From Rhodococcoides kyotonense (GTDB taxonomy: Bacteria > Actinomycetota > Actinomycetes > Mycobacteriales > Mycobacteriaceae): a stretch of 64,000 bases of DNA. Each line of letters begins with the position of its first letter. Position 1 is the stretch's first letter. Below the pieces are notes generated by a model. That model saw only the letters and a list, made by a program, of their open reading frames with translations, was not told the DNA's origin and made no database searches. The stretch is from positions 186,001 to 250,000 of the forward strand of contig NZ_FZOW01000007.1 of assembly GCF_900188125.1 (NCBI RefSeq), given 5' to 3'. Both the position numbers and the translations under genes were made by a program. Positions 38,131-52,233 of the stretch are shown here, piece by piece.

Positions 38131-39237
38131 TCAGGCAACTCGGAGTGCTTGCGTCACGTTCCTCAGGGCTGCCACCGACTTCCAGTCCGTCACTGCCGCA
38201 CAGTTTCGCGCGAGCAACGCGAGAATCAGCCGGTTCACGACGTCGTTGTCCGGCAATACGTCGATGGCGGCAAGCGTGATGTACAGACCGCTCAACAACT
38301 GAATCTGGTAGTCGCACGTTGCCTGTCCGAGGTCGTAGCCAGGCGTGCGTTCGGCGAACACATCGATGTATTTCTGCAGGAGCCTGTTCTCGTGAGCTCG
38401 TCTGGCCTCGATCCCGACGCTGCCGGACATGAAGTATCCGACGTCGTACATGGGATTGCGCAGCCCAGTGACCTGCCAGTCGATGAAAATGGCGGCAGGC
38501 TGCGCGCCCGAGGTGTCGAACAAGATGTTGTCCACCCGAGGATCGCCGTGCGTGAACGTAAGGCGTTGCTGCGGAAGCTGATACCAGTCGCGGACCAGAG
38601 CCGTCGCTTCGGAGATCGCACCGAGCGACTCCGCGGGAAGGTCGTTCGAAAACCGTTGCAGCGCAGCTCGTGCACCCGACTCCGCCGCCACGGACCAGTA
38701 CTCGCACACAGCCCCGAGCCGAATCATCCATGCCGGCGCCGACTCGTCGGTCAGAGGGAAGAACTCCGAATGGAGCCGTGCCATCTCGATGACGACGGAT
38801 TCCGCTTCCACCGGCCCGCACCCGGCGACCTGGTTACCTGCCGTTGTCGTCGTGCTGAGGTCCTCCATCACGAGATTGATGGTGGTCTCGTCCCCGGTGA
38901 CCCAGTACTTCAGGGGAATTCGGCACGCGTGACGCTCCGAGATATCCACGTAGGCGCCGATCTCACGATGGTAAGCACCGCTCCGAAGACCGTGCGCGTG
39001 AACCGCCGGATCGCTGGGCTTCAGTTTCACGACGAGCGAGCTCGGCGCATCACCCGCTGGAGTCGAGTAATCGATCTCGACCCGGACCGTGTCGCTGACG
39101 TTGCCCGCCCCGATGGGCGCCGACGAGATCGACGCGACCTCCGCTCCAGGGATTCCCGAGTACCGAAGCACGGACTGAATCCACGCGGCATCGATCTCGG
39201 CGACGGTATCCAACAGGCGAGGCTCGAGAGTGCTCAT
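38131..39237 (-). CDS. APH-family phosphotransferase (kinase-like)
   Basis: A 368-residue protein with the aminoglycoside phosphotransferase/choline-kinase fold. The catalytic loop is FTHGDPRVDNILFD (about residues 233-246; catalytic Asp in HGD, metal Asn in DN), followed by FIDWQ for the second metal Asp (about 256). This branch is common in actinobacterial lipid, steroid and hydroxyacid gene clusters and is unlikely to be a resistance gene. ACAD10/11 and LvaA, relatives by fold, phosphorylate hydroxyacyl-CoAs. The start at ATG 39237 shares ATGA with the NTF2-like stop; ATG 39243 is also possible. It is the fourth gene of the operon beginning at 42367. Confidence 0.85.
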   Translation of the reverse strand: MSTLEPRLLDTVAEIDAAWIQSVLRYSGIPGAEVASISSAPIGAGNVSDTVRVEIDYSTPAGDAPSSLVVKLKPSDPAVHAHGLRSGAYHREIGAYVDISERHACRIPLKYWVTGDETTINLVMEDLSTTTTAGNQVAGCGPVEAESVVIEMARLHSEFFPLTDESAPAWMIRLGAVCEYWSVAAESGARAALQRFSNDLPAESLGAISEATALVRDWYQLPQQRLTFTHGDPRVDNILFDTSGAQPAAIFIDWQVTGLRNPMYDVGYFMSGSVGIEARRAHENRLLQKYIDVFAERTPGYDLGQATCDYQIQLLSGLYITLAAIDVLPDNDVVNRLILALLARNCAAVTDWKSVAALRNVTQALRVA

Positions 39238-39584
39238 GACCATGACCCTTCGAAGTAGCCGGAATTCCAGACGTCGGTGATGACACCGTCGTCGGCCTTG
39301 AATATTTCTATGCCACAGAGCTTTTCTCCCGTGCTGTGACGGATTGCGTTCCAGGTGAGTGACGCAAAAGTGTCGTCTCCCACCAGCGTCACTATCGAGA
39401 ATTCCGGTTCGTGCGCCGCCAGATCTGCTTCGATGCGCGCGAACTGCTGCTCCCTGGTGAGTGCGGTGACCGATCCTGCTGCGTGCCTCAGCATCGGTTC
39501 GCCGCAGATCTCGTGAACAAGGTGAATCTGTCGATCGTTGTAGAGCTCGAAGAGGTATCGCTCGACAAGATGAGAAGGTGTCAT
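39234..39584 (-). CDS. NTF2-like (SnoaL-type) protein
   Basis: A 116-residue protein with the SnoaL/ketosteroid-isomerase-like cone fold: an opening amphipathic helix (LVERYLFELYNDR), then L-T-R-E-Q-x-x-x-R-I and a strand-rich C-terminus ending CGIEIFKADDGVITDVWNSGYFEGSW. Members are small isomerases, hydrolases or binding proteins; no catalytic residue can be assigned. ATG 39584 overlaps the LLM stop by 4 bp, and its own stop overlaps the next ATG, so it is embedded in a tightly coupled operon. The longer open frame upstream is shadow. Confidence 0.8.
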   Translation of the reverse strand: MTPSHLVERYLFELYNDRQIHLVHEICGEPMLRHAAGSVTALTREQQFARIEADLAAHEPEFSIVTLVGDDTFASLTWNAIRHSTGEKLCGIEIFKADDGVITDVWNSGYFEGSWS

Positions 39585-40630
39585 GCGGACACCCGCGCGT
39601 TCCGAAACGCCGTCACCGTCGACCTCAGCTCGGACGGTGTGGCACCGTGCAGGATGACACCATCGACACCGAGATCGAACTGATGACGGACCAGATCGGC
39701 GCATCGTTCCGCCGAACCGGTTGCAGCGCAGTCCAACCACTCGGATGGAATGACCTCGGCGAGTTCGGCGAACGTCTCCGAATCGCCGACAGCGTCGGCC
39801 CATCCCGGAAGCCCCTGCACGACGGCCGATTCACGGAATTCTTTCAGTCTTGCCGGATCCCACCGGTTGGTGGACACCAGCAGATCGCCATAGACCTGGA
39901 GGTACGTGGCGATGCGGCCGACCGTCTTCTTCAGGAACGTCTGCTCGTCGATTTCGTCGGACACCGTGGCGTAGCACGACCAGACCTTCACGCTCCGAGG
40001 ATCTCGGCCTGCCTGTTCGGCGGCGTCACGTACTGCCTGCACCGAACGTACGACGGTCTCGTCGGAGAAGAAGGTGTGCAGCACGACCATGTCGTACGCC
40101 CGACCTGCCATCGCGAGCGTCTTGTCGCCGAATGCCGTTGTCGCGAGCGGAATGCGTTCGTCGAACGTCGGATCCAACGACAGCGCGGGAAATTTTCCGA
40201 GGGGGCCGTCGTAATCCAGGATCTTCTCGCCCTGCCACAGGCGTCGCATCACGTGCGCAAATTCCTCGAGTTGCACGGTGGTGGTCTGCTTCAACCCCAT
40301 CGCATCGATCTGTGGCCGTAGACCGCGCCCGACGCCGAGCGTGAACCGACCGCCGGTGAGGCGGTGCATCGTCGACCCGAACGCAGCCGTGATCGACGGA
40401 TGGCGGGTGTTGATGTTCGTTGCGGCAGTGGTGATTCCGATGCGGCTGGTTACCGCTCCCGCGGCGCCGGACAGCGCGCATGCCTCCTTGACATTGAGTC
40501 GCTCGGAGATGAAGGCCTGCCCGAGCCCCATTGCCTCGGCCTCGGCCAACTCGTCGAGCATCGTCCGAGGGCTCTCGACGTGGCCACCCAATGTGTAGAA
40601 GCCGAGCTGGTCGACCCTCGCGTCAGACAT
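39581..40630 (-). CDS. LLM-class F420-dependent oxidoreductase
   Basis: A 349-residue luciferase-like TIM-barrel oxidoreductase, probably using coenzyme F420. Typical features: A-E-A-M-G-L-G-Q-A-F-I-S-E-R near 31-44, ATNINTRHPSITAAFGSTMHRLTGGRFTLGVGRG (about 69-103), and a C-terminal GVDGVILHG. It resembles the actinobacterial TIGR03857 group. Three bases after the PEP-type gene's stop, it is the second gene of that operon. It may reduce or oxidise a pathway intermediate; substrate unknown. Confidence 0.88.
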   Translation of the reverse strand: MSDARVDQLGFYTLGGHVESPRTMLDELAEAEAMGLGQAFISERLNVKEACALSGAAGAVTSRIGITTAATNINTRHPSITAAFGSTMHRLTGGRFTLGVGRGLRPQIDAMGLKQTTTVQLEEFAHVMRRLWQGEKILDYDGPLGKFPALSLDPTFDERIPLATTAFGDKTLAMAGRAYDMVVLHTFFSDETVVRSVQAVRDAAEQAGRDPRSVKVWSCYATVSDEIDEQTFLKKTVGRIATYLQVYGDLLVSTNRWDPARLKEFRESAVVQGLPGWADAVGDSETFAELAEVIPSEWLDCAATGSAERCADLVRHQFDLGVDGVILHGATPSELRSTVTAFRNARVSA

Positions 40631-40633
40631 GGG

Positions 40634-42367
40634 CTAGAGAACCGTCACGGTGCCGGTTGTCCCGTCGACTTCGATTTCGGCGCCGTCCGGGATTCGGACA
40701 GTCGCATCCGTTGCCGAGACGATGCACGGGATCCCGAGTTCGCGGCTGACGATCGCGGCATGCGAGAACGGCGCACCGACGTCGACGACGACAGCCGCGG
40801 CCGTGACGAAGAGCGGCGTCCACGACGGATCGGTGATCGGTGCGACGAGAATGTCTCCTGCATCGAGAGCGGACGGATCGTCAGGTGTAGTGAGGACGCG
40901 AGCCCGTCCACGCGCGATTCCGGTACAACCGGAGACGCCGGCGATCGACTCACCCTTGCCCAGCACAGTGCTGCGCTTGTCCGACCGCAGAGGCCACTCC
41001 TCGACCGGAGGCGCGGTGCCATCGACGACGAACGGCGGCTGTCGGTCGAACAGGTGAAGGTAAGTCTTCTCACGGTCGGCCAAAACGGATGTCAGCGCGG
41101 ACGGATCCGCGAGATAGCTGTCGATCTCGTCGGCGAACAGCATGAAGATGTGCTTCACCTCCGCCAAAGAGCCGGATTCGACGCCTCGCTTGCCGAGTTC
41201 CAGTGCTGCCAAGCGGATCTCGTGCATCAGCATCGCAGCAGTAGTGCGCCCGCGCTCTCGTCCGCGCATCCAGAGCGCAGCTGCATTCAGAACGGCTTCG
41301 AACTGAGCCGATGCCTCGGCGTCCGCTGCGAGCGCAGCACGAACGTCGGTCGATGCTGCTTCACGCTGCGCAGCCCGCTCGGCGGTCTTCGCCTCGGGTG
41401 CTTCCGACTCGTCGACGAGTCGCATTCGGTCGATGGTGCCCAGCGCCAAAGCTGGATTGACACCCCACGTCGTCGCACGGATCTCCCATTCGGCTGGGCC
41501 GCGGAAGTCCCAATCGGCGAGGAAGTCGTCGAGTTCGGCGGCGAACGCGACGACGTCGGAATCCTCGGAGCCGCTGAGTCGTTCGTACAGGCCTTCGACA
41601 CCGGCGTCGAAGAGAGCAGCGATCTGCGGCTTCTGCGCGAGACGCCCGAGGTTCCACATCCTGATCGACGGTAGGGCAGAGTCGATGTTGCCGATTCCCG
41701 CGACGAGCGTCAGCGCCAATTCGGGTCGGCCGATGGCCTCGGTCAGTTGCGCCATTGCGCCGAGGCCGACGCCCGACTTGAGGCTCGCTTCGATGTGATG
41801 CTTGAACAGGCGCCGGAGAACAGTTTCGAAAGACCGCATGCGCGTGAACAATTCAGCATCCGACAGGCCCGTCAGATCGGGACGGTCGGCTCGGATCTGT
41901 TCGACCTCTGCCCTGTCCACGTCGTAAGCGGCGAGATCCGTTGCGCCGAGAACCTGCTCGCCGAGCCACTGGCCGGCCTTCGCCTCGTACTCGGCGTTCT
42001 CGTCGAAATCGCGACGCTCGCTTTCGTAGCTGGGAATACCCGGCATGTCGCCGAAGTACTGGAGGTCGACGGCTTCGGCGGACATACCGGGAACGCGGAC
42101 TCCGAACAGCCGCATCAGCGACATGTTGATGTACAGGTAGCTGCCGAACGCAGGAAGGATGTTCATTGCGACGTTCTCGACGTACAGATCGGCATCCCAC
42201 ACACCGCACGCGACGAAAGCGTCGCGCCAGCCGGGCTCGAGGCAGTGCTGGAATCCGACCGATGCATTCAGCGGACTGATCGGATCGGGGAAGATCTCGC
42301 CGACATTGGCCCGCGAGTACAGAGGAAATACCTTGGACGTTGCGTCGTCGATCGGCCACTCGGCCAT
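40634..42367 (-). CDS. PEP-synthase-type swivelling-domain phosphotransferase without ATP-grasp
   Basis: A 577-residue protein. The last 80 residues are the PEP-utilising enzyme mobile (swivelling) domain, with phosphorylatable His536 in APFSHAAIVSRELGIPC after GDILVAPITDPSWTPLF. The first 450 residues are mainly helical, with no ATP-grasp and no PEP/pyruvate barrel; they may bind the phosphate acceptor, as the middle domain does in rifampin phosphotransferase. This layout is like protein 1 of phenylphosphate synthase (Thauera), whose His is also near the C-terminus and which needs a separate ATP-grasp partner; the PPDK-like gene at 49066 is a candidate. ATG 42367 has AAGAGG upstream. It is first of the operon with LLM, NTF2-like and APH genes, and divergent from surE. 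Confidence 0.85.
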   Translation of the reverse strand: MAEWPIDDATSKVFPLYSRANVGEIFPDPISPLNASVGFQHCLEPGWRDAFVACGVWDADLYVENVAMNILPAFGSYLYINMSLMRLFGVRVPGMSAEAVDLQYFGDMPGIPSYESERRDFDENAEYEAKAGQWLGEQVLGATDLAAYDVDRAEVEQIRADRPDLTGLSDAELFTRMRSFETVLRRLFKHHIEASLKSGVGLGAMAQLTEAIGRPELALTLVAGIGNIDSALPSIRMWNLGRLAQKPQIAALFDAGVEGLYERLSGSEDSDVVAFAAELDDFLADWDFRGPAEWEIRATTWGVNPALALGTIDRMRLVDESEAPEAKTAERAAQREAASTDVRAALAADAEASAQFEAVLNAAALWMRGRERGRTTAAMLMHEIRLAALELGKRGVESGSLAEVKHIFMLFADEIDSYLADPSALTSVLADREKTYLHLFDRQPPFVVDGTAPPVEEWPLRSDKRSTVLGKGESIAGVSGCTGIARGRARVLTTPDDPSALDAGDILVAPITDPSWTPLFVTAAAVVVDVGAPFSHAAIVSRELGIPCIVSATDATVRIPDGAEIEVDGTTGTVTVL

Positions 42368-42454
42368 GTCGTACCTCTTTCGTGGGCGTTGGTCCCGTGC
42401 GTGAAGACGTTCGGCGCAGCTCATCGTCGTACCGGATGGTTAGCGAACGTGTAT

Positions 42455-42470
42455 TCACAGTATTATGTGA
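42455..42470. promoter_or_regulatory. TCACA-N6-TGTGA inverted repeat between PEP-type gene and surE
   Basis: TCACA (42455-42459) and TGTGA (42466-42470) flank GTATTA in the 269-bp divergent region, 88 bp upstream of the PEP-type gene's ATG. Similar TCACA/TGTG-rich symmetry appears upstream of the P450 operon. No regulator can be assigned. Confidence 0.35.
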
Positions 42471-42636
42471 CTGCGATCACGGTGTCAAGACCTCTTTCGA
42501 GGCCTTTCGCCGGGCTTCGGGTCGACATCGCGTCGCGACGCACTGAAGGCTGGACAAAAGTGCGAACTTTGAGTCACTATCGGACTCACGATCACTGGCG
42601 CACCCCATTCTCGGTGTGCGCGAAAGGGGAACTGCG

Positions 42637-43416
42637 ATGCGCATTCTGGTCACCAACGACGACGGAATCGAGGCCCCGGGCCTGCTGGCGGTAGCCTCTG
42701 CGCTCGTCGAGGCAGGACACGACGTCGTGATCGGTGCCCCCGCCGTCGAGAGCAGCGGGAGTGGATCCTCACTCGGGACACTCGAACACGGGGCTGTCAT
42801 CGCCGTCGAACCTCGTCGACTACCGGAATTGCCGAGCGTGGACGCGTACGCATTCGACTGCCCGCCTGCATTCGCCGTGCTGGCTTTCTGCGCGGGCCAG
42901 TTCGGCCCACCTCCGGAACTGGTCGTGAGCGGCATCAACCCCGGTCACAACACCGGACGATCGGTTCTCTTCTCCAGCACGGTAGGCGCCGTGCTCACTG
43001 CCCAGATCGCGGGAATCGGGGGCGTCGCGGTCAGTTGCGGGTTCCCGCCGTCACATCGATTCGACACCGCAGCCGACGTAGCCGTGCGGGTCGTGCAATG
43101 GATCGACGACAACGAGGCCCATGGCCTCACACTCAACGTCAATGTCCCGGACCTGGACTTCGATCAGCTCACCGGTGTACGCGTCGCAACCCTCGGTGCG
43201 CGCAGCCTGCTCGGGTTGAAGATCACGCGGGTGGACGGCGGCGTCGAACTGCGCAGGTACGACAACACGTCGGGCCTGGGAGCGGACACCGACGCTGCGA
43301 CGGTGTTGGCCGGTGCCGTTGCGGTGACTGCGTTGACGACCGTCGGCTCGGATGAGTCCACCGAATTGGCCGGGGTCGGAGATCTCTTGCGATATGGCTT
43401 CGCCGCCCGTGCGTGA
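42637..43416 (+). CDS. surE: SurE-family nucleotidase/phosphatase
   Basis: A 259-residue SurE phosphatase. The metal-binding NDDG (residues 7-10), a Ser-rich loop, and VSGINPGHNTG (about 98-108), the family motif S-G-x-N-x-G-x-N, are intact, as is FSSTVGAV (about 113-120). SurE enzymes dephosphorylate nucleoside monophosphates and other phosphoesters. ATG 42637 has AAGGGGA upstream; the frame is open to GTG 42616. Being divergent from a phosphotransferase operon, it may remove phosphate from a pathway intermediate rather than serve only as a housekeeping nucleotidase; inference. Its stop lies inside a 40-bp palindrome. Confidence 0.92.
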   Translation: MRILVTNDDGIEAPGLLAVASALVEAGHDVVIGAPAVESSGSGSSLGTLEHGAVIAVEPRRLPELPSVDAYAFDCPPAFAVLAFCAGQFGPPPELVVSGINPGHNTGRSVLFSSTVGAVLTAQIAGIGGVAVSCGFPPSHRFDTAADVAVRVVQWIDDNEAHGLTLNVNVPDLDFDQLTGVRVATLGARSLLGLKITRVDGGVELRRYDNTSGLGADTDAATVLAGAVAVTALTTVGSDESTELAGVGDLLRYGFAARA

Positions 43417-43448
43417 GGAGTTACGCCGCGGCGTAACTCCTCACGCAC
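43409..43448. terminator. Perfect 40-bp palindrome between surE and the convergent gene
   Basis: Two 20-bp arms (43409-43428 and 43429-43448) are exactly complementary with no loop, centred on CCGCGG. The surE stop (43414-43416) is in the left arm and the convergent gene's stop is 7 bp past the right arm. Probably a bidirectional terminator. Sequence unrelated to the 2414/20644 family. Confidence 0.7.
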
Positions 43449-43454
43449 AGAGCC

Positions 43455-44066
43455 CTATTCGTCGTGCTCGCCCCGCTCTCGACGCAACACGAACAGCAAG
43501 TCCTGGTGTAATTCCATCCAGATGTCGTGGTAACTGTCGTTCATCGGCCGGGCGAAGGCACCGCGATCGCCGGCTCGGATTCTGTTCAGCGCAGCGGTGA
43601 GCCGAGGCGCGTAGAGCGACATCCGCGGATCCTCCGCTCCCAGCGGCTTCAGAGCTTCGGCGATGTCGGCATGTACGACAGCAAGATCGTCGACGACCCG
43701 CGCGTCGTATTCGATATCTGCATGATCGTTGGGCGTCGCCTCGTCCCGCATCTGCCAGGCGCTGCATACCTGCTTGAACCGCCCGTTCAGCGGAAGGAAT
43801 GCCTCGTAGAACGCCTCGACGGCGGGTCCTGCCTGCTCCGATGCAAGCAATTCGGCGTGCCGTTCCTTGCCGACGGGGCTGAGCATCGAGCCGCTCATCC
43901 GCCCTTCCTTACGCACGACGAGGTGGTCGTCGACGAGCGGTTGCAACCGCAACTGCAACTCGTCCGGACCGATTCCGACCATCTCCGCGAGCACGGGATC
44001 GGTTGCCAATCCTTTGATCCGGATCGAGTGCAGAATCGAAAACGATTCCTGAGCAGTGGTTGTCAT
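43455..44066 (-). CDS. Winged-helix DNA-binding-like protein (MarR-like N-terminus)
   Basis: A 203-residue protein. Residues 5-75 look like a winged helix (ILHSIRIKGLATDPVLAEMV, then LVDDHLVVRKEGRMSGSMLSPVGKERHAEL), the rest is helical with W-Q-M-R-D near 105 and a conserved-looking acidic/His C-terminus. I do not recognise a named family. It is translationally coupled (ATGA) to the end of the acyl-CoA ligase upstream, so it may regulate or assist that pathway. No enzymatic motif is visible. Confidence 0.6.
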   Translation of the reverse strand: MTTTAQESFSILHSIRIKGLATDPVLAEMVGIGPDELQLRLQPLVDDHLVVRKEGRMSGSMLSPVGKERHAELLASEQAGPAVEAFYEAFLPLNGRFKQVCSAWQMRDEATPNDHADIEYDARVVDDLAVVHADIAEALKPLGAEDPRMSLYAPRLTAALNRIRAGDRGAFARPMNDSYHDIWMELHQDLLFVLRRERGEHDE

Positions 44067-45553
44067 GACTGTCCTCCTATGTGAGCGAATTCGTCCTTCA
44101 GGGCACGCTTGTTCAACTTGCCGGTGGGCAGCCGCGGCAGTCGCGAGGTGAATTCGACGACACGCGGAGCTTTGTAGTGCGCAAGCCGACCTCGGCAGAA
44201 CGCGATGAGATCGGCCTCGGTGACCGTCGAATCTCTCAGTTCGACAACAGCTTTGACGCGCTCACCGAATTCGGCATCGGGCACTCCGATCACGGCAGCG
44301 TCGAGGACACCGGGATGCGAGACGAGTACTGCTTCGATCTCATCCGGATAGATGTTGACCCCACCGGAAATGATCATGAACCCCGCGCGTCCGACGAGAT
44401 ACAGAAATCCGTCCTCGTCGAGATAGCCGAGGTCGCCCATCTGCTTCCGGCCACTCGCGTCGGCGATGTTCGTGTAGCTCTGAGCCGCGGTCGGTTCGAA
44501 CCAGACAGTCCCCACCTGGCCTGCGGGCAGTTCGACGCCGTCGCCGTCGGTGATGCGCACGGTGGTCTTTCCGAGCGGGCGCCCGACCGACCCGGGATGC
44601 GTCCTGGCCTCCAGCGGCGCGATATAGGTGTGGCCGTAGCCCTCGGATGCGCCGTAGTACTCGTGCAGAATCGGGCCCCACCAGCGATCGATCTCGTTCT
44701 TGATGTCGATCGAACACGGCGCACCGGAGGTGAAGGCAACTCTGTGCGTCGCTATTCGCCTGCGGTTCGGGACGTTCAGCAACCTGACCAGCATCGTCGG
44801 CACCCACTGCGAATGAGTCACCCCGTACTTCTCGATAGCAGCCAGCGCGGCGTCGGCATCGAATTTCTCCATGCAGACGATGGTTCCGCCGGCCGCCAGC
44901 GTGATGAGCTGGAAGGTGAACGGCGCGGCGTGATAGTTCGGCGCGGGCGAGAGCAGCACGGTGTCCGCGTCGATCTCGAGCTTGTCGACGAGACCGGCGT
45001 GACGCGGCGGTGCAGCCTCCGGATGCACTCCGAGCAATCCCTGCCGAAAAGCCTTGGGGCGTCCGGTGGTTCCGCCGCTGAACAGCACTCGGGCACCGAG
45101 AAGTTCGCCGTCGACAGGCGTGGTCGGCCTGTCTCGGAGGGACGCGTCGAGGTGCTCGAAACCAGGGACGTCGTCGACGGACATCAACAAAGCTCGATGC
45201 CCGGCAGAACCGACAGCGCCCGCCACCGTCGAAGCCAACAGCGCACTGGTCACGACCACCGCGGGCTTCGACTCCGCGATGAGCGCAGCCAGCTCCGAAG
45301 TCTGCAGATGCCAGTTCACCGGCGTCACGTAGAGCCCGGTGCGCATGCCTGCGGCGACGACAACGGGCCACTCGATGTTGTTCTCCATCGCGATCACGAC
45401 GGTATCGCCGCTGCTCACGCCGTGTTCGCGCCACCGGTGGGCAAGTTGATTCGAACGACGGTCCAGCTCGGCGTATGTCAAAGATTTGCCCGACGCCGCC
45501 ATCATGTAGGCCACTGCATCCGGCCTGTCTCGGGCAATGCTCGGTGGGTACAC
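44063..45553 (-). CDS. AMP-dependent acyl-CoA synthetase, second paralogue
   Basis: A 496-residue CoA ligase. The ATP motif FSGGTTGRPKAF (about 158-169), YYGASEGYG (about 303), SGGVNIYPDEIE (about 400) and C-terminal LPTGKLNKRAL with the catalytic Lys are present. The ATP loop lacks the Lys-Gly ending of its relative (K-A in place of K-G), a minor change. I start at GTG 45553 (CGAGG seven bases upstream) because the encoded protein then aligns at its N-terminus with the ligase at 36519-38051; the frame is open to 45595. It is divergent from the P450 operon and probably activates the acid that operon produces. Confidence 0.9.
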   Translation of the reverse strand: MYPPSIARDRPDAVAYMMAASGKSLTYAELDRRSNQLAHRWREHGVSSGDTVVIAMENNIEWPVVVAAGMRTGLYVTPVNWHLQTSELAALIAESKPAVVVTSALLASTVAGAVGSAGHRALLMSVDDVPGFEHLDASLRDRPTTPVDGELLGARVLFSGGTTGRPKAFRQGLLGVHPEAAPPRHAGLVDKLEIDADTVLLSPAPNYHAAPFTFQLITLAAGGTIVCMEKFDADAALAAIEKYGVTHSQWVPTMLVRLLNVPNRRRIATHRVAFTSGAPCSIDIKNEIDRWWGPILHEYYGASEGYGHTYIAPLEARTHPGSVGRPLGKTTVRITDGDGVELPAGQVGTVWFEPTAAQSYTNIADASGRKQMGDLGYLDEDGFLYLVGRAGFMIISGGVNIYPDEIEAVLVSHPGVLDAAVIGVPDAEFGERVKAVVELRDSTVTEADLIAFCRGRLAHYKAPRVVEFTSRLPRLPTGKLNKRALKDEFAHIGGQS

Positions 45554-45608
45554 CAGGAACCTCGTTTGCGAATAGAAGGTCACTAACGCTTGCAAGCTAA
45601 GCGCACGT

Positions 45609-45640
45609 CACATTTTTACACAAGATGTGGTTCACACCAC
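45609..45640. promoter_or_regulatory. Overlapping inverted repeats between ligase and P450 operons
   Basis: CACAT-N11-ATGTG (45609-45613 and 45625-45629) overlaps GTGGT-TCAC-ACCAC (45627-45640) in the 147-bp gap between the divergent GTG 45553 and ATG 45701. This is a plausible operator for the TetR encoded in the P450 operon, but no second copy confirms it. Confidence 0.35.
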
Positions 45641-45700
45641 TGTCCATGTATGGTTTAGTGAAACATGAGTCGCAAACCAGATTCTGCACGGGAGGACACG

Positions 45701-46903
45701 ATGACGATCACCGAGGACGTCGACCTGATGGACCTTCGTCCGTTCGCGGACGGGTCCGACCACCGGGTCTTCTCGCACCTACGCGACGCCGACCCGTTGC
45801 ACTGGAATGCCGAACCGAACGGTCCCGGATTCTGGTCGGTCACACGCTACGAGGACGTCAAAACCGTCGCATCGTCGTTCGAGGACTTCTCGGTGGTCGA
45901 GGGAACTCAGATCGCCAGCAGGCGCGCGGAAGGTGAAGGTGCGCGCAGCATCCACCACGTCGATCCGCCCGAGCACGGGCCGCTACGCGGCATCGTCACC
46001 CCACACGTACGCCCGGTGAAGATCAAGTCACTCGAGAAGGACATCGCAGCAGTCATCGATTCGCTGCTCGACGACGCCATCGACGCCGGCACCATCGACC
46101 TGGTCGCCTCGATCACCTCACAACTGCCGCTGGTGATGATCGGACGCCTGCTCGGCGCACCCCTGGAGGACTGCCCGAACCTGCTGAAGTGGACCAATCA
46201 GATGGCCAGCGAGGATCCCGACTACTCCGAGGGCCCCGAGACAGCAGTCAAGGCACGCGACGAGGTGTTCGGCTACTTCCGCGGACTCGAAGAACTACGC
46301 CGTCACTGCCCGGCCGACGACCTCATCTCGGTGCTGACAGCAGCCGAACTGGACGGAAAGCCCTTGGCTCGTGGCTATCTCGACGCCTATTACCTGATTC
46401 TGATGGTGGCGGGCAACGAGACCACCCGAAATCTGTTGTCGGGCGGTGTTCAACTGCTCCACGAGAATCCACAGTGGTGGCAGTTCATGCGCGACAATCC
46501 CGCCAAGATCCGCGTCGTCGTCGAAGAGATGGTGAGGATGACGTCGCCGGTTCTGTCGATGCGACGCACCGCGACGCGTGACATCGAGATGCATGGCAAG
46601 ACAATTCGCCGGGGCGACAAGGTCGTCATGTGGTTCTGCTCGGCCAACCGCGACGAGCGTGTCTTCGAGAACCCCCAGGAGTTCCGCGGCGACCGCTTCC
46701 CCAACGAGCACGTCGGATTCGGTTGGGGTGCACACGCGTGCCTCGGTGCGAATCTCGCACGCCTGGAAGCGAAGCTGTTCTTCACTCGCATCGTCGAACG
46801 TGGGCTGCGCATGGATGTCACCGGCGACGTGAACCGACTGCAGAGCAACTTCTTTCGCGGAATCAAGACACTCCCGGTGGAAGTGACCCGGATCGATGGG
46901 TGA
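45701..46903 (+). CDS. Cytochrome P450 (bacterial class I type)
   Basis: A 400-residue soluble P450. I-helix LMVAGNETTRN (about 236-246), E-x-x-R in EEMVRM (about 286), and haem loop FGWGAHACLGANLAR with Cys347 are intact. The style (HHVDPPEHGPLR) is that of the CYP125/124/268-like actinobacterial enzymes that hydroxylate alkyl chains, terpenoids or aromatics. ATG 45701 has GGGAGGACACG in front, so I prefer it to ATG 45665. It leads an operon with ALDH, SDR, PPDK-like, TetR and ferredoxin reductase genes; the reductase/2Fe-2S fusion supplies its electrons. Confidence 0.92.
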   Translation: MTITEDVDLMDLRPFADGSDHRVFSHLRDADPLHWNAEPNGPGFWSVTRYEDVKTVASSFEDFSVVEGTQIASRRAEGEGARSIHHVDPPEHGPLRGIVTPHVRPVKIKSLEKDIAAVIDSLLDDAIDAGTIDLVASITSQLPLVMIGRLLGAPLEDCPNLLKWTNQMASEDPDYSEGPETAVKARDEVFGYFRGLEELRRHCPADDLISVLTAAELDGKPLARGYLDAYYLILMVAGNETTRNLLSGGVQLLHENPQWWQFMRDNPAKIRVVVEEMVRMTSPVLSMRRTATRDIEMHGKTIRRGDKVVMWFCSANRDERVFENPQEFRGDRFPNEHVGFGWGAHACLGANLARLEAKLFFTRIVERGLRMDVTGDVNRLQSNFFRGIKTLPVEVTRIDG

Positions 46904-48293
46904 GCACGCGGTGTCGTTGATCGACGGCACACCCTACGTAACCGAGACTCTCGTCGACGTCGTCGACCCGTTCACCGGTCAATCGATCGGCTCGACGCAC
47001 GAGTCCGGTTCGGATGCAGTTCATTCCGCCGTTCGGTCGGCAACCGAAGCGTTCCAGGACTGGTCTCGAACTTCGGTCGACGATCGGGCTGCGGTTCTCG
47101 AACGAGCAGCGGACCTGCTCGACGAACGAGGGTCTTTCATCGCGTCGACGGTCACCCGTGAGATGGGTATGCCCACCCGGCTTTCCCAGGTGACGCAGTC
47201 CCAGCTCCCGGCATCGGTACTACGTGCAGCCGCTGCCACTGCACGAGCCTTCCCGTGGATCGAGGACATCGACGGCGCACAGCTGCGACGACGCGCCAGT
47301 GGTGTGGTCGGAGCGATCACACCGTGGAACATGCCTGTCCATCAGATCGTCGCGAAGGTGTCCGCGGCGTTGGGCGCGGGCTGCACCGTCGTGCTGAAGC
47401 CCTCGGAGGCCACACCTTTCGACGCGGTGGCCATCGCGCAGATCTTTCTCGACGCCGGTCTCCCTCGCGGCGCGTTCAACGTCGTCCAGGGAACGGGCGC
47501 TGTCACCGGATCCGCGTTGGCGAGTCACCCAGGCATCGCCCATGTGTCGTTCACCGGGAGCGTCGGTGCGGGACGCACAGTTGCCGCCCTGGCTGCCGGC
47601 TCACTGGCGCGCACGACGTTGGAACTCGGAGGGAAGTCACCCGCAGTGATTCTGCCCGACGCGGACCTCGACGTCGCCGTCGCAGGTGCCCTCGGTAGCG
47701 CATTGGTCAACTCGGGCCAGGCATGTAATGCGCCCACACGCATGGTGATCCCTTCTCACATGGCCGGCGAGATCGAAAGACGTATCGCCGAAGCGACTTT
47801 CGTTCTGGGAGATCCCAGCGATCCTGCGACGACGCACGGACCGCTGGCATCCAAGCGCCAGCTCGATCGCGTCGTCGACTATGCACAATCCGCACTCGCC
47901 GACGGCGGTCGTCTCGTCGTCGGAACCGGGAAACCCGAGGGCGGATGCTTCATGGCTCCCACCGTCATAGCCGATCTGCCACCGACTGCGCGCGCTGTTC
48001 GAGAGGAGATCTTCGGTCCGGTTGTCGTACTGCAGACGTATGGTGACGTCGACGAGGCAGTGAGGATCGCGAACGACAGTGATTTCGGATTGTCCGCAGA
48101 GGTGTGGGGCGACCCGTCCGAGGCCAAGTCCGTGGCATCGAAACTTCATGTGGGACAGGTGAAAGTGAACGGCGTGAGAACACGGGAGCGACCTGCGGTA
48201 CCCTTCGGCGGGATCAAGCAGTCCGGCTATGGGCGTGAACTCGGAGCACTCGGATTCAGCGAGTTCACCGACGTGACGGCGGTGATGGCATGA
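46896..48293 (+). CDS. Aldehyde dehydrogenase family protein
   Basis: A 465-residue ALDH with ITPWNMPVHQ (about 143), base Glu in LELGGKSP (about 243) and catalytic Cys in NSGQACNAPT (about 276). It overlaps the P450 end by 8 bp and the SDR start by 4 bp. It probably oxidises the aldehyde formed after P450 and SDR action to the acid. Confidence 0.92.
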   Translation: MGEHAVSLIDGTPYVTETLVDVVDPFTGQSIGSTHESGSDAVHSAVRSATEAFQDWSRTSVDDRAAVLERAADLLDERGSFIASTVTREMGMPTRLSQVTQSQLPASVLRAAAATARAFPWIEDIDGAQLRRRASGVVGAITPWNMPVHQIVAKVSAALGAGCTVVLKPSEATPFDAVAIAQIFLDAGLPRGAFNVVQGTGAVTGSALASHPGIAHVSFTGSVGAGRTVAALAAGSLARTTLELGGKSPAVILPDADLDVAVAGALGSALVNSGQACNAPTRMVIPSHMAGEIERRIAEATFVLGDPSDPATTHGPLASKRQLDRVVDYAQSALADGGRLVVGTGKPEGGCFMAPTVIADLPPTARAVREEIFGPVVVLQTYGDVDEAVRIANDSDFGLSAEVWGDPSEAKSVASKLHVGQVKVNGVRTRERPAVPFGGIKQSGYGRELGALGFSEFTDVTAVMA

Positions 48294-49069
48294 CCCTCGT
48301 CGTGACAGGAGCCGCGTCGGGCATCGGTTTGGCTCTCGTTCGCAGGGCATTGGGCGCAGGCATCGAGGTCTGGGCGGTGGACCGCAATGCGTGCCCCGAA
48401 CCCGCGGCGAAGACGGTGCTGTGCGATCTGTCGGATCCGGACGAGATTGCGACTCTGGAGCTTCCGCGGCACATCGACATGCTCGCATGCGTGGCCGGCG
48501 TGCCGGGAACCGCTCCACCAGAACTGGTACTGGCGGTCAACACGCTCGGCATGCGGCTCCTCACCGGACGGTGTCTCGGTGCCATGGCTTCGGGCGCGCG
48601 CATCGTCAACGTTGCCTCGGTGGCTGCTCACCGCAATACCGTCGCGCTACCCGATATTGCGACTCTGCTCTCCGTCACGGACAAGCCGAATCTGGACACA
48701 TGGCTGGCCGAGCACCCGCTCGACGGACCTGCCGCCTACGACACGTCCAAACGTGCTGTGCTGGAATGGACGTCATCGCTCGCCGCACATCTGATCCCGC
48801 GGGGCATCGGAGTCGTTTCCGTCAGCCCAGGACCGACCGAGACTCCGATTCTGACCGACTTCACGGAGAGCATGGGTGCCGAGTCGATCGACCGGTCAGC
48901 CGCAGCCGTCGGTCGTCATGGCACAGCCGACGAAATCGCGGCCGTCGTTCACTTCTTCCTCTCCCCCGCAGCATCGTGGACCAACGGAATCGACATCCCC
49001 GTCGAAGGCGGGTTGCTCGCCACTCGATCAGCACTGCTGTCCGATGCATTGAAAGGACTCGATTCATGA
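48290..49069 (+). CDS. Short-chain dehydrogenase/reductase
   Basis: A 259-residue SDR with TGAASGIG (residues 6-13), CVAGV in place of NNAG (about 67), NVASVA (about 105) and YDTSK (about 147-151). The NNAG change is known in several hydroxysteroid/alcohol dehydrogenases of the family, and a long insert (LPDIATLLSVTDKPNLDTWL) near 123-142 precedes the Tyr. It probably oxidises the alcohol made by the P450. ATGA overlaps at both ends show tight coupling with ALDH and the PPDK-like gene. Confidence 0.9.
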   Translation: MTLVVTGAASGIGLALVRRALGAGIEVWAVDRNACPEPAAKTVLCDLSDPDEIATLELPRHIDMLACVAGVPGTAPPELVLAVNTLGMRLLTGRCLGAMASGARIVNVASVAAHRNTVALPDIATLLSVTDKPNLDTWLAEHPLDGPAAYDTSKRAVLEWTSSLAAHLIPRGIGVVSVSPGPTETPILTDFTESMGAESIDRSAAAVGRHGTADEIAAVVHFFLSPAASWTNGIDIPVEGGLLATRSALLSDALKGLDS

Positions 49070-50526
49070 GCTTGCCGACGATCGTCGATCTGAACGGAAC
49101 CGAGCCTGGCAGCCGCGAGCTGCTCGGCGGAAAAGCATACAGCGTCAACAAGATGCGAGCCCTGGGCCTCCCGGTACCGCCTGCATTCGCGCTGACGACT
49201 CCGTTGTGCGCGCAGTATCACGACAACGGCGGGTCGCTGTCCGAGGACCTGTGGGCCGAGGTGCTGGGGCATCTGGCCAGGCTCGAAGACGAAACCGGCC
49301 GCAAGTTCGGCGTCGGACCGTTTCCTCTGCTGGTGTCCGTGCGGTCCGGTGCCGCGCAGAGTATGCCCGGAATGATGGACACCGTCCTCAACCTCGGTCT
49401 CACCGAGTCTCTGCGCGACGAGCTTGCCGCGGCGACGGGCGACGAGGCGTGGGCGCAGAACACGTGGACCCGATTCTGCGAGAGCTACACATCGATCGTC
49501 GGTCCCGTACCCGCGGATCCCTACGAGCAGCTGCGCGGCGCGATCGGCGCAGTGTTCGACTCGTGGAACAACGAACGCGTCGCTGCGTACCGAAACCGTC
49601 ACGGGCTCGGCGCGGGAACGGGAACCGCTGTCACCGTGCAGGCCATGGTGTTCGGCAATCGCGACGAGCGCTCCGGCACAGGCGTTCTGTTCAGCCGGAA
49701 CCCGAGCTCGGGTGAGAACGCCCTGTTCGGAGAGTGGCTTGCGCAGGCACAGGGTGAGGACGTCGTCTCCGGCGAGCGGACGCCGTCGCCCCTCACGCAC
49801 TTGGAGGCGACGTTGCCGCAGCACTACGCCGAGCTCGCACGCATCGCGTCGGTCCTGGAGAAGGATCACCGCGACCTCGTCGACATCGAGTTCACCATCG
49901 AAAGCGACACGCTGTACGTCCTGCAGTGCCGCAAGGGCAAGCGCTCGGCTGCCGCGGCAGTCCAGGTGGCCGTCGACCTCGTCCACGCAGGAATGATCAC
50001 GAACATCGAAGCGCTGGAACGTGTCTCGGCCGAGCAGATCCGGTCACTGGAGGACAACGACGAGATCACAGTGGGTGCTCCCGTCGTCGCACAGGGTAAC
50101 GGCGCCAGCCCAGGGACTGCGTCAGGCATCGCCGTCACCGATACGGACGAGGCCCAGAATCTTGCGGCCGAGGGTGTCTCGGTGGTGCTGGTTCGACCGT
50201 CGACCGCGCCGGACGATGTCCCCGCAATGTTCGAATCCGTTGCGGTGGTGACCGAAGTGGGTGGTTCGACGTCCCACGCAGCGCTGGTCTGCCGAGAGAT
50301 CGGCCTACCGTGCGTCGTCGGATGCGGGCCGGGGACGGTCGATGCTCTGCGGGGCCGGACCATCACCGTCGACGGCGCGTCGGGGAAGATCTACGAGGGG
50401 AACGTGCTCGAAGCAGGCACGCAGAATCACGCGTCGCTCGCGGAGTTGTTGACGTGGCTGCCGGATCCGATCCCCGCCGACCACCACCTGGCGTCGGTGA
50501 CACACCGACCTCTCGAAAGCGCCTGA
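49066..50526 (+). CDS. Short PPDK-like protein: ATP-grasp plus swivelling domain, no PEP/pyruvate barrel
   Basis: A 486-residue protein. Residues about 10-330 resemble the N-terminal ATP-binding part of pyruvate phosphate dikinase (ELLGGKAYSVNKMRALGLPV, then VSVRSGAAQSMPGMMDTVLN, EFTIESDTLYVLQCRKGKR). Residues about 345-445 are the swivelling domain (NGASPGTASG, and GGSTSHAALVCREIGLPC with phospho-His404). The 350-residue C-terminal PEP/pyruvate barrel of real PPDK (about 870 residues) is missing, and the gene ends cleanly, so it cannot make PEP. It could use ATP to phosphorylate its own His or that of the partner at 40634-42367, giving a two-component phosphotransferase for an alcohol or phenol. 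The ATG overlaps the SDR stop by 4 bp. Confidence 0.85.
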   Translation: MSLPTIVDLNGTEPGSRELLGGKAYSVNKMRALGLPVPPAFALTTPLCAQYHDNGGSLSEDLWAEVLGHLARLEDETGRKFGVGPFPLLVSVRSGAAQSMPGMMDTVLNLGLTESLRDELAAATGDEAWAQNTWTRFCESYTSIVGPVPADPYEQLRGAIGAVFDSWNNERVAAYRNRHGLGAGTGTAVTVQAMVFGNRDERSGTGVLFSRNPSSGENALFGEWLAQAQGEDVVSGERTPSPLTHLEATLPQHYAELARIASVLEKDHRDLVDIEFTIESDTLYVLQCRKGKRSAAAAVQVAVDLVHAGMITNIEALERVSAEQIRSLEDNDEITVGAPVVAQGNGASPGTASGIAVTDTDEAQNLAAEGVSVVLVRPSTAPDDVPAMFESVAVVTEVGGSTSHAALVCREIGLPCVVGCGPGTVDALRGRTITVDGASGKIYEGNVLEAGTQNHASLAELLTWLPDPIPADHHLASVTHRPLESA

Positions 50527-50530
50527 GACC

Positions 50531-51223
50531 ATGACCGAGAATGCGGCAACCACCGGAATCGATGCCGAGTTCACCCGCGCCGGCCTGGTCGAGAACATCG
50601 TCTCGTCGCCGAAGCGCGCGAACCGTCGCGGCGAGCAGACCAGGGACAAGATCATCGCGGCCGCGACCGAGTGCTTCACCGAATACGGCTACACGAGGAC
50701 ACGGATCTCGGACATCACGCATCGCGCCGATACCGCTCAGGGCAATTTCTATCGCCACTTCGCAGGTCTCGACGACGTGTTCCTCGCTGCGCTGAGGCCC
50801 GCCCTCGCAGATCTGTCCAATTCGCGTGGTCGCCCGGACCGCGCTCACGGTGAGCTCGACTCACTCATCGAGGTGAACACCACCTACCTGCAGACCTATT
50901 CGCGACACCGGCACATGCTGCGGCTGCTCCGCGAAGCTGCTGCAGCAAGTGCGAACGAGGGATTTCAGCAACTGTGGCTGAACCTCCGATCGGACTACGT
51001 AGCGCGCACCCGTCGGTGGCTCGAGCGTCTCGCCGAGGCAGGCGTCATCGAGGGGCGAAACTTCGAACTGCTCGCCGAGACGCTCGGCTGCATGACCGAA
51101 CAATTGGCGTACGTGCACATCGGACTGCCGTCGAGCACCCCGAAGCGTGAACGTATCGACGAACTCGGCAAGGTCCTGGGTGAGGTCTGGTACCAGACCC
51201 TGCCGTTCAAGGCGGCGACATGA
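50531..51223 (+). CDS. TetR-family regulator
   Basis: A 230-residue TetR-type repressor. The helix-turn-helix is at about residues 35-85 (RDKIIAAATECFTEYGYTRT and RISDITHRADTAQGNFYRHF), preceded by a 30-residue extension. The rest is a helical ligand domain. It is inside the P450 operon (4 bp after the PPDK-like stop and overlapping the reductase start by ATGA), so it probably autoregulates that operon through the symmetric sites at 45609-45640. Confidence 0.88.
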   Translation: MTENAATTGIDAEFTRAGLVENIVSSPKRANRRGEQTRDKIIAAATECFTEYGYTRTRISDITHRADTAQGNFYRHFAGLDDVFLAALRPALADLSNSRGRPDRAHGELDSLIEVNTTYLQTYSRHRHMLRLLREAAAASANEGFQQLWLNLRSDYVARTRRWLERLAEAGVIEGRNFELLAETLGCMTEQLAYVHIGLPSSTPKRERIDELGKVLGEVWYQTLPFKAAT

Positions 51224-52233
51224 CACTCGTCGAATCTCGCACTCTGGGAGTCGAACTCGAAATCCGCGACGTCGTCCAAGAGACTCCCGACGCAGTCTCG
51301 ATCGTGTTCGACGGGCATGTCGACTACACACCGGGACAATTCCTGACCTTGAGAGTTCCGAGCGAGCAGACAGAGTTCGTCGCTCGGTGCTACTCGCTGG
51401 CGAGCTCACCGGCTACCGACTCGGCGCTGAAGGTCACCGTCAAGAGAACGCGCGACGGCTATGCGTCGAACTGGTTGTGTGACAACGCCGAACCGGGCCT
51501 GCGTCTGCGAATCCTTCCGCCAAGCGGGACGTTCACTGCTGTGTCGTTCGAGCATGACCTCTCACTGTTCGCCGGCGGAAGCGGAATCACGCCGATCATC
51601 TCGATTCTGAAGTCGGCTCTCGCCACCTCGACCGTGAATGTCGCGCTGTTCTACGCCAACCGTGACCGCGTGTCGGTCATCTTCGACGACGAACTCGCCG
51701 AGCTCGAGGACCGATATCCCGGTCGCATACGCGTCGTACATTGGCTCGAGTCCGAACGCGGGATTCCTGGCGCCGACGATCTGCGTGCATTCGCCGGGCC
51801 CGTGACGGACAGCCACGCCTACATCTGCGGACCGGGTCCGTTCATGGCTGCGGTGGAATCCACTCTCCACGGTCTGGGTGTCGAGCATGTCCATGTCGAA
51901 CGGTTCGTCTCGCTGTCGGGTGATCCGTTCACGCTGTCTCTGGACACCGAGCCGTCGGCGGCTTCTTCGACGGTATCCGTGGAGTTGGACGGGGAACAGC
52001 ATTCCCTCGAGTGGCCGTCGAAGTCCACGCTCATCGACGTCCTTTTGGCCGCGGGAATCGATGCGCCGTATTCGTGCCGCGAAGGTGAATGCGGATCGTG
52101 TGCGTGCACGTTGCGATCGGGAACGGTCGATCCCGGGAACATCACCGCCCTCGCCCCGGAGGACGTGGACGACGGCTACATCCTCGCGTGCCAGGCAAAA
52201 CCGACGAGCCCTCACCTGGATGTGGAGTTCTGA
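51220..52233 (+). CDS. Ferredoxin reductase fused to C-terminal [2Fe-2S] ferredoxin domain
   Basis: A 337-residue electron-transfer protein of the KshB/PaaE-type family. FAD motif R-C-Y-S-L-A-S-S (about 56-63), NAD(P) motif GGSGITPI (about 118-125) and CGPGPFM (about 204), then a plant-type [2Fe-2S] domain with Cys286, Cys291, Cys294 and Cys324. It reduces an oxygenase, here most likely the P450 at 45701, directly from NAD(P)H without a separate ferredoxin. It is the last gene of the operon, and its stop is 90 bp before the UvrA-like gene. Confidence 0.92.
   Translation: MTLVESRTLGVELEIRDVVQETPDAVSIVFDGHVDYTPGQFLTLRVPSEQTEFVARCYSLASSPATDSALKVTVKRTRDGYASNWLCDNAEPGLRLRILPPSGTFTAVSFEHDLSLFAGGSGITPIISILKSALATSTVNVALFYANRDRVSVIFDDELAELEDRYPGRIRVVHWLESERGIPGADDLRAFAGPVTDSHAYICGPGPFMAAVESTLHGLGVEHVHVERFVSLSGDPFTLSLDTEPSAASSTVSVELDGEQHSLEWPSKSTLIDVLLAAGIDAPYSCREGECGSCACTLRSGTVDPGNITALAPEDVDDGYILACQAKPTSPHLDVEF

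Follow-up and report, generated by a model that had tools for sequence, protein, structure and literature searches.

A gene cluster of Rhodococcoides kyotonense seems to encode a hitherto unrecognised type of split small-molecule dikinase, outside the known CreHI, PpsAB and HpeHI systems. It lies in the window that we analysed, i.e. the whole 64,000-nucleotide stretch at positions 186,001 to 250,000 of contig NZ_FZOW01000007.1 (C12:186001-250000), within a 6.31-Mb genome of 50 contigs. Three of its genes are central: that of PpsX, the putative substrate-binding swivel subunit (40634..42367, minus strand), that of a short pyruvate phosphate dikinase (PPDK; P0001; 49066..50526, plus strand) and a small gene that we call p200 (43455..44066, minus strand). 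On balance, and judging from sequence comparisons, we favour the view that their products form a multi-part, ATP-dependent small-molecule dikinase that would open a catabolic pathway. Gene identities were assigned with Pfam and NCBIfam models and by a coordinate check, in which the positions of the two catalytic histidines, His536 of PpsX and His404 of the short PPDK, proved exact with starts at 42367 and 49066.

The short PPDK (486 aa, PF01326) scores 624.3 bits with NCBIfam model PRK05878 (NF004531; cut-off 456). Its alignment with PPDK 1kbl covers the ATP-grasp and swivelling domains only and stops at residue 526 of 873; the phosphoenolpyruvate (PEP)/pyruvate barrel is missing, as is an ATP-grasp stretch corresponding to PPDK residues ~146-194, and the catalytic His404 is present. 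When nine short PPDKs are aligned, the motifs RSGA and EFT and residues Q287, R289, T396, G399, G400, T402 and His404 are kept in all nine, and K23 in all eight rows reaching that position. On the strength of the PRK05878 score and the 1kbl alignment, and because the truncated-PPDK family is the VadK family, we group this protein with VadK and not with CreI. The short PPDKs of our contig C17 and of genome G184 branch away from the other 55 short ones, which may mean that PPDKs lost the barrel on more than one occasion.

The genome contains four PPDK-like genes, one each on contigs C12, C17, C26 and C16, the last accompanying another swivel family. A PF01326 scan found three proteins, all PPDK-type, and no CreI/HpeI-type ATP-grasp gene; the model is sensitive to the latter type, scoring an HpeI-type protein 355.5 bits. 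The C26 gene (C26:162882-165335), detected only with P0001 as the query, stands beside p200 and is flanked by two PpsX genes. Proteins of its type, which have relatives in G160, G029, G149, G161 and G215, keep the barrel (404-418 bits) and have a weak ATP-grasp/swivel match (158-201 bits). The barrel-less VadK-family PPDK, together with p200, is the likely ATP-side partner of PpsX.

PpsX (577 aa, PF00391) comprises a RIF-binding-like substrate part and a C-terminal swivelling domain bearing His536, and lacks an ATP-grasp domain. Residues 571-866 of rifampin phosphotransferase (RPH) match residues 297-596 of the longer PpsX open reading frame. The protein does not carry the T/SxxGGxxxH motif: GA stands at the GG position and is invariant in the four copies of this genome, which occur in three clusters (C12, C17 and C26). 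With these copies as queries, a search of 298 genomes of the order returned at least 12 full-length relatives from eight genomes, scoring at least 626 bits, and the next match scored 212 bits. In a quick tree of 56 proteins, made without bootstrap and having some long branches and deepest supports of 86-88, PpsX (14 rows), a generic type designated ppsG (22) and Rv2047c-like proteins (9) are each set off by a branch that has 96-99% support in the Shimodaira-Hasegawa-like approximate likelihood-ratio test, and all three types are separate from HpeH-type proteins. G085, HpeH-like by context, shares 29-32% identity over 272-295 aa with the PpsX paralogues of this genome. A single-sequence AlphaFold model of PpsX (predicted local distance difference test, pLDDT, 38.7) was too poor and was set aside. 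An earlier note made from the window alone had described a PEP-type phosphotransferase without ATP-grasp and a short PPDK-like protein without a barrel; both descriptions hold.

The genes named in the note exist at the places it gave, but p200 had been overlooked. This gene encodes a 203-aa protein (A4 family) with a winged helix and a conserved helical C-terminal domain, both visible in an AlphaFold2 model of pLDDT 88.8. A Foldseek comparison of the model with the PDB gave no match at E <= 0.001, the top rows being winged-helix proteins with TMq values of at most 0.34; the label 'MarR regulator' therefore fits the N-terminus alone. The p200 proteins of the C26 type lack part of this N-terminal end. 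As a contrast set we took the best 80 PPDK loci from public genomes, mostly ordinary PPDKs. The five without a barrel frame (L079, L080, L081, L087 and L100) are the same five that have p200, while in the remaining 75 the barrel frame is present and p200 was not found; 40 of these 80 stretches span at least 18 kb and 15 less than 10 kb, so that a distant p200 could escape notice in the short ones. In Nocardia uniformis (L079) p200 is the C-terminal part of a 720-aa short PPDK chain, and similar fusions occur in L168 and L218. Within the order, p200 was found in 59 of the 298 genomes (65 matches). The neighbourhood count covered 51 of these matches, the other 14 having been inspected previously: of the 27 that reach 150 bits, 24 lie within 6 kb of a PPDK-type match scoring 100 bits or more (L160 being a fragment), a threshold that is not fully specific, since three RPH-like single chains score 103-111 bits. 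Several weaker p200 relatives (at L188:10355-11485, and likewise in L189, L192, L194, L201 and L206) adjoin a protein of ~380-480 aa that matches both the CreI-type ATP-grasp and the swivel and may be a variant; in L188 a gene that looks histidine-phosphatase-like by eye is close by.

All four PpsX genes of the genome lie within ~14 kb of a PPDK-type gene, more than chance would give: none of 200,000 random placements put all four within 16 kb of one. We compared 12 PpsX clusters, ten from this genome and seven others and two from one plasmid, with loci that were hand-chosen from the relatives of PpsX, not random, and that differ in stretch length. A PPDK-type gene and p200 are both present in 11 of the 12 (G247 has a PPDK fragment only), and a CreI-type gene in none of the stretches examined. 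All six loci with HpeH-type or unclassified ~600-aa proteins (G085, G206, G176, G068, G267 and G186), by contrast, include a CreI-type gene beside the ~600-aa one, and p200 is absent. Among the ppsG or unclear picks, a short PPDK and p200 are present in G234, G138, G021 and G230; neither was found in the stretches from G025 (4.1 kb), G148 (12 kb) and G155 (4.3 kb). In five picks that are RPH-like (G169, G205, G163, G202 and G176), the ATP-grasp is part of the same chain. Tight operons of p200, a short PPDK and a PpsA-like gene occur in G230, G234, G021 and Diaphorobacter. As a separate observation, the C16 region of this genome (L042:8258-16325) and L080, L081 and L087 contain operons with a short PPDK, p200, a separate swivel, a ~500-aa protein ('fam2'), a CoA ligase and what, from its length and its likeness to C16 genes, should be a biotin-dependent carboxylase, resembling the Hpe logic of phosphorylation followed by carboxylation with a different kinase.

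The neighbouring genes of the window are mainly oxidative and CoA-activating. On the plus strand, a cytochrome P450 (45701..46903, PF00067), an aldehyde dehydrogenase (ALDH; 46896..48293, PF00171, 461.5 bits), a short-chain dehydrogenase (SDR; 48290..49069, PF13561; PRK12428-like, 221.3 bits, just missing the cut-off of 242) and the short PPDK are joined by overlaps of 4-8 nt. A TetR regulator gene (50531..51223, PF00440) starts 4 nt past the short PPDK and overlaps by 4 nt the gene of a FAD/NAD reductase with a C-terminal 2Fe-2S domain (51220..52233; PF00970, PF00175 and PF00111), which is a separate gene. Also on this strand is a SurE-family phosphatase (42637..43416, 259 aa, PF01975, 139.9 bits). 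On the minus strand, a FadD4-like acyl-CoA ligase gene (44063..45583, PF00501) overlaps p200 by 4 nt, and a third tight set comprises the genes of an EcKL/APH-type kinase-like protein (38131..39243, PF02958, 61.6 bits), a 116-aa protein (39234..39584), an LLM-class F420-type oxidoreductase (39581..40630; TIGR03857, 375.7 bits, cut-off 218.4) and PpsX. A second acyl-CoA ligase (36519..38051, minus strand, PF00501) is of uncertain cluster membership. The Pfam and NCBIfam matches bear out the enzyme classes named in the earlier note (SurE, P450, reductase, SDR, ALDH, two CoA ligases, LLM and APH-type kinase-like), except that 'NTF2-like' for the 116-aa protein, whose family was not recognised, finds no Pfam match up to E 0.1. 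The best matches of the P450 among solved structures are CYP125MRCA, P450terp and CYP125, and none of the 60 listed among 128 such matches, many of which have generic titles, is labelled CreJ; the best matches point faintly to a hydrophobic substrate that is terpenoid-like or branched, although a phenol is equally possible. Two further genes were seen in the window: an ABC-type ATPase, UvrA-like by eye (52324-54591), which directly follows the reductase gene but is not found next to either of the Rhodococcus clusters described below, and a second P450 (60592-61983, PF00067, 218.6 bits), which shares 24% identity with the other one over 203 aa.

Plasmid pA of Rhodococcus pyridinivorans P23 carries the same arrangement (PpsX, SurE, p200-CoA ligase, P450-ALDH-SDR-short PPDK-TetR-reductase) twice. 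In copy A the identities to the window proteins are 72% for PpsX, 63% for SurE, 54% for p200, 77% for the P450, 63% for ALDH, 59% for SDR, 66% for the short PPDK, 67% for TetR, 59% for the reductase, 69% for LLM and 28% for the kinase-like protein; over both copies PpsX stays at 72%, the P450 at 77-78% and the short PPDK at 66-67%. The LLM gene is retained in one of the two copies, and a 64% relative of the second acyl-CoA ligase adjoins copy B. A 20-kb stretch of G184 unites counterparts of PpsX (72%), TetR (51%), P450 (52%), ALDH (46%), SDR (44%), CoA ligase (47%) and p200 (41%) with a short PPDK that is 60% identical to the C17 copy and 41% to that of the window, and with a reductase of another type. 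Because the order recurs twice in R. pyridinivorans and most parts are joined in G184, we conclude that the two operons, whose co-occurrence the earlier note had proposed to check, belong to one locus; the separation in other genomes that the note would have counted as a refutation is not what these genomes show. The record of a paper on R. pyridinivorans P23 and polyethylene terephthalate (PMC10611731) offers no clue to the substrate. In the C17 cluster, a DUF7064/DUF7065 protein (L038:18313-19314) has two relatives, and another relative stands beside a PEP-utilising gene on an M. avium plasmid.

In the pathway that we propose, the short PPDK, aided by p200, would draw phosphate from ATP and pass it to His536 of PpsX; the ATP-grasp site might charge this residue directly, or His404 might act as a relay. 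PpsX would bind a hydrophobic alcohol or phenol and phosphorylate its hydroxyl, after which the P450 would attack the resulting phosphate ester at a methyl group, and SDR and ALDH would complete the oxidation to an acid. This acid would then be activated by the CoA ligase, and SurE would take the phosphate off, freeing the hydroxyl. A phosphatase gene is present in 10 of the 12 PpsX clusters (none was seen in G149 and G247): SurE in the window and in each of the two R. pyridinivorans copies, and His_Phos_1 in C17, C26, G184, G029, G161, G215 and, by 85% identity, G160. Models of the recurring phosphatases, which belong to three Pfam families, match 10 of the 12 clusters (428 kb), a circular figure as they were built from these proteins; as background, they match 5 of 45 regions around p200 genes within the order (893 kb) and none of 38 full-PPDK loci from other phyla (805 kb). 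In the Hpe pathway a phosphate is added, the carboxylase acts on the phosphorylated compound only and HpeD removes the phosphate (PMC9618137). This precedent and the recurrence of phosphatases near PpsX support a logic of phosphorylation, modification and dephosphorylation, and a phosphorylate-oxidise-dephosphorylate scheme is plausible for the locus. The earlier note had advanced such a scheme; it gains from the recurring phosphatase and the single conserved locus, while the substrate and the order of steps stay conjectural.

Gene order does not fix the order of reactions, and SurE reaches only 113.8 bits with TIGR00087 (cut-off 135.1). The kinase might thus act as proposed with phosphorylation following the P450, or SurE might be an unrelated nucleotidase, the phosphate being an end-product handle and not a mask. 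We consider this unlikely, given that phosphatases of three families recur above the rate in control regions and that the Hpe carboxylase requires its substrate phosphorylated (PMC9618137).

A different reading, which seems to us quite improbable, takes the short PPDK for a VadK-like regulatory histidine kinase acting by binding, with PpsX served by another, unrecognised donor. For VadK, autophosphorylation at His422 and binding to enzymes of the methylcitrate cycle have been reported (PMC13400623). Against this stand the PF01326 scan, which found no CreI-type donor in the genome, the grouping with PpsA-like genes in single operons of unrelated bacteria, and the two linked copies in R. pyridinivorans. 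A condensation role, as for RedH and PigC, which make a phosphorylated intermediate for condensation, is very doubtful for the product of PpsX: the RedH model does align along the entire protein (residues 34-595 against model positions 319-877 of 880), but with 130 bits, far under the cut-off of 1350, and no biosynthetic partner genes were seen in the stretch beside the oxidative and CoA-activating ones. Finally, an orthologous CreHI-type p-cresol pathway, although its enzyme classes agree (kinase, P450, dehydrogenases and phosphatase), is scarcely credible and was rejected on the type of ATP-grasp, the swivel motif and the tree position, to which p200 and the lack of a CreJ label among the listed P450 matches may be added; nor is kinship with CreHI and phenylphosphate synthase as one family, systems that the earlier note had cited as parallels, supported.

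Several observations weigh against the split dikinase itself. The C26-type partner, in six genomes, keeps its barrel and has a weak ATP-grasp; it may be a PEP-driven donor, so the donor may differ between clusters. Why a donor short PPDK should retain a swivelling domain of its own has no explanation. Three of the 27 high-scoring p200 loci lack a PPDK at the 100-bit threshold (L160 being a fragment), and of the 24 weaker p200 relatives only six pass, L206 fitting the CreI-type model better; the adjacency of p200 and PPDK is a rule for the high-scoring class only. SurE falls below the TIGR00087 cut-off, and in G184 a His_Phos_1 phosphatase is present and SurE was not seen. Lastly, VadK has been reported as a protein-interacting regulator (PMC13400623), which also counts against the lipid-kinase role considered next.

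Parts of the same split enzyme recur in other bacteria, mycobacteria included. In a survey of 148 genomes of one genus (Mycobacterium by content), PRK05878 was found in 74 and PRK05865 in 64, with both in 61 (Fisher p 2e-24, uncorrected for descent); the joint genomes include broken copies (G361 and G396) and one partial match (G419), and a stricter count gives 60 with both and 2 and 11 with one alone (p 3e-27). From its domains (epimerase, RIF-binding-like and swivel) and its Pks12 neighbour, we infer that PRK05865 is the family of Rv2047c. It occurs alone in G339, G374 and G400. Of the 13 genomes with PRK05878 only, 10 loci were viewed: seven (G230, G306, G307, G330, G334, G354 and G381) have one to three adjacent ppsG genes, G369 and G418 have none within 20 kb of the short PPDK, and in G148 ppsG is on another contig; in G323, G324 and G332 the match to PRK05878 comes solely from a frame as long as a complete PPDK. 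Only eight genomes (G311, G312, G326, G344, G353, G375, G393 and G415) have the two genes less than 20 kb apart; in the other joint ones they are not close. In G353 and G344, an Rv2047c-like gene, a synthase of 4151 or 4145 aa, a short PPDK and p200 occupy ~17 kb. The 4151-aa protein is a polyketide synthase by Pfam, and Pks12 has the same length (PMC7261415); in all of six further genomes the Rv2047c-like gene adjoins a synthase 64-68% identical to the 4151-aa one.

Transposon sequencing found rv1127c, rv2047c and pks12 alike, required with mycobactin and dispensable with hemin (PMC7058343), a weak support, since mmpL5, mmpS5, murI and irtB, siderophore-export genes among them, show the same pattern. 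PMC6851703 gives Rv2047c-Rv2049c as succinate dehydrogenase, in conflict with PMC7058343; we take this entry of PMC6851703 to be a misprint. The need for ppdK on cholesterol has been read as ordinary gluconeogenesis (PMC3182942), which argues against a lipid-kinase role of VadK. The co-occurrence of short PPDKs and Rv2047c-like proteins suggests a job for VadK: tentatively, and with appreciable doubt, the truncated PPDK and p200 may be the shared ATP-side module of a class of dikinases, in which VadK, Rv1126c and Rv2047c would phosphorylate the product of Pks12. To our knowledge, no enzyme has been assigned to the phosphorylation step of phosphomycoketide, and none is named in a literature listing on the subject or in text from two papers in it. 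If the module exists, swappable swivel subunits would serve breakdown, phosphorylation-carboxylation (swivel, 'fam2' and biotin carboxylase) or lipid synthesis; if the Pks12 assignment is also true, a phosphomycoketide lipid would result and VadK would be partly or wholly a lipid kinase.

A testable enzymatic role is thereby offered for truncated PPDKs, which carry the annotation PPDK or have been taken for a regulatory kinase, and p200, for whose C-terminal domain no look-alike was found in the PDB, is named as a third gene. Among the titles and abstracts listed by our literature searches, none connects a short PPDK with a small-molecule kinase. Candidate partners are offered for VadK and for the phosphorylation of phosphomycoketide. 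The comparison also suggests that phosphate-masking pathways arose repeatedly, each time by combining other kinases, phosphatases and oxidases.

Among known systems, HpeHI, CreHI and PpsAB come closest. They too have separate substrate-swivel (~600 aa, C-terminal His) and ATP-grasp subunits with a swivel histidine as the phosphate carrier, and the Hpe system likewise has a CoA ligase and a phosphatase alongside the kinase. HpeH, CreH and PpsA are, however, ~45% pairwise identical and share the T/SxxGGxxxH motif, and PpsB, CreI and HpeI resemble PEP synthase (PMC12167813). Here the ATP-grasp subunit is PPDK-type with its own swivel, p200 is present, GA and not GG precedes the histidine, and PpsX forms a clade separate from HpeH-type proteins. 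Since no CreI/HpeI-type ATP-grasp gene was found and the swivel has a clade of its own, the locus is not a CreHI/HpeHI system. The Cre pathway for 4-cresol unites genes of a kinase, a P450 (CreJ, of the CYP288 family), alcohol and aldehyde dehydrogenases and a phosphatase, the same enzyme classes in one locus, matched as classes only. RPH shares with PpsX a RIF-binding-like part followed by a C-terminal swivel, but it is a single chain with its own ATP-grasp. PPDK agrees with the donor in its ATP-grasp and swivel (E 5e-110), but the donor differs in lacking the barrel and in its association with p200. VadK solubility improves on co-expression with the operonic partner Rv1126c, and methylcitrate-cycle regulation was reported for Rv1127c alone (PMC13400623). 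Rv1126c is probably a member of the p200 family. The donor of the window resembles VadK (Rv1127c, presumably itself of PRK05878) as a barrel-less short PPDK of the same NCBIfam family, but, unlike VadK in its reading as a regulator, it has its gene associated with that of a substrate-swivel protein and with a catabolic operon.

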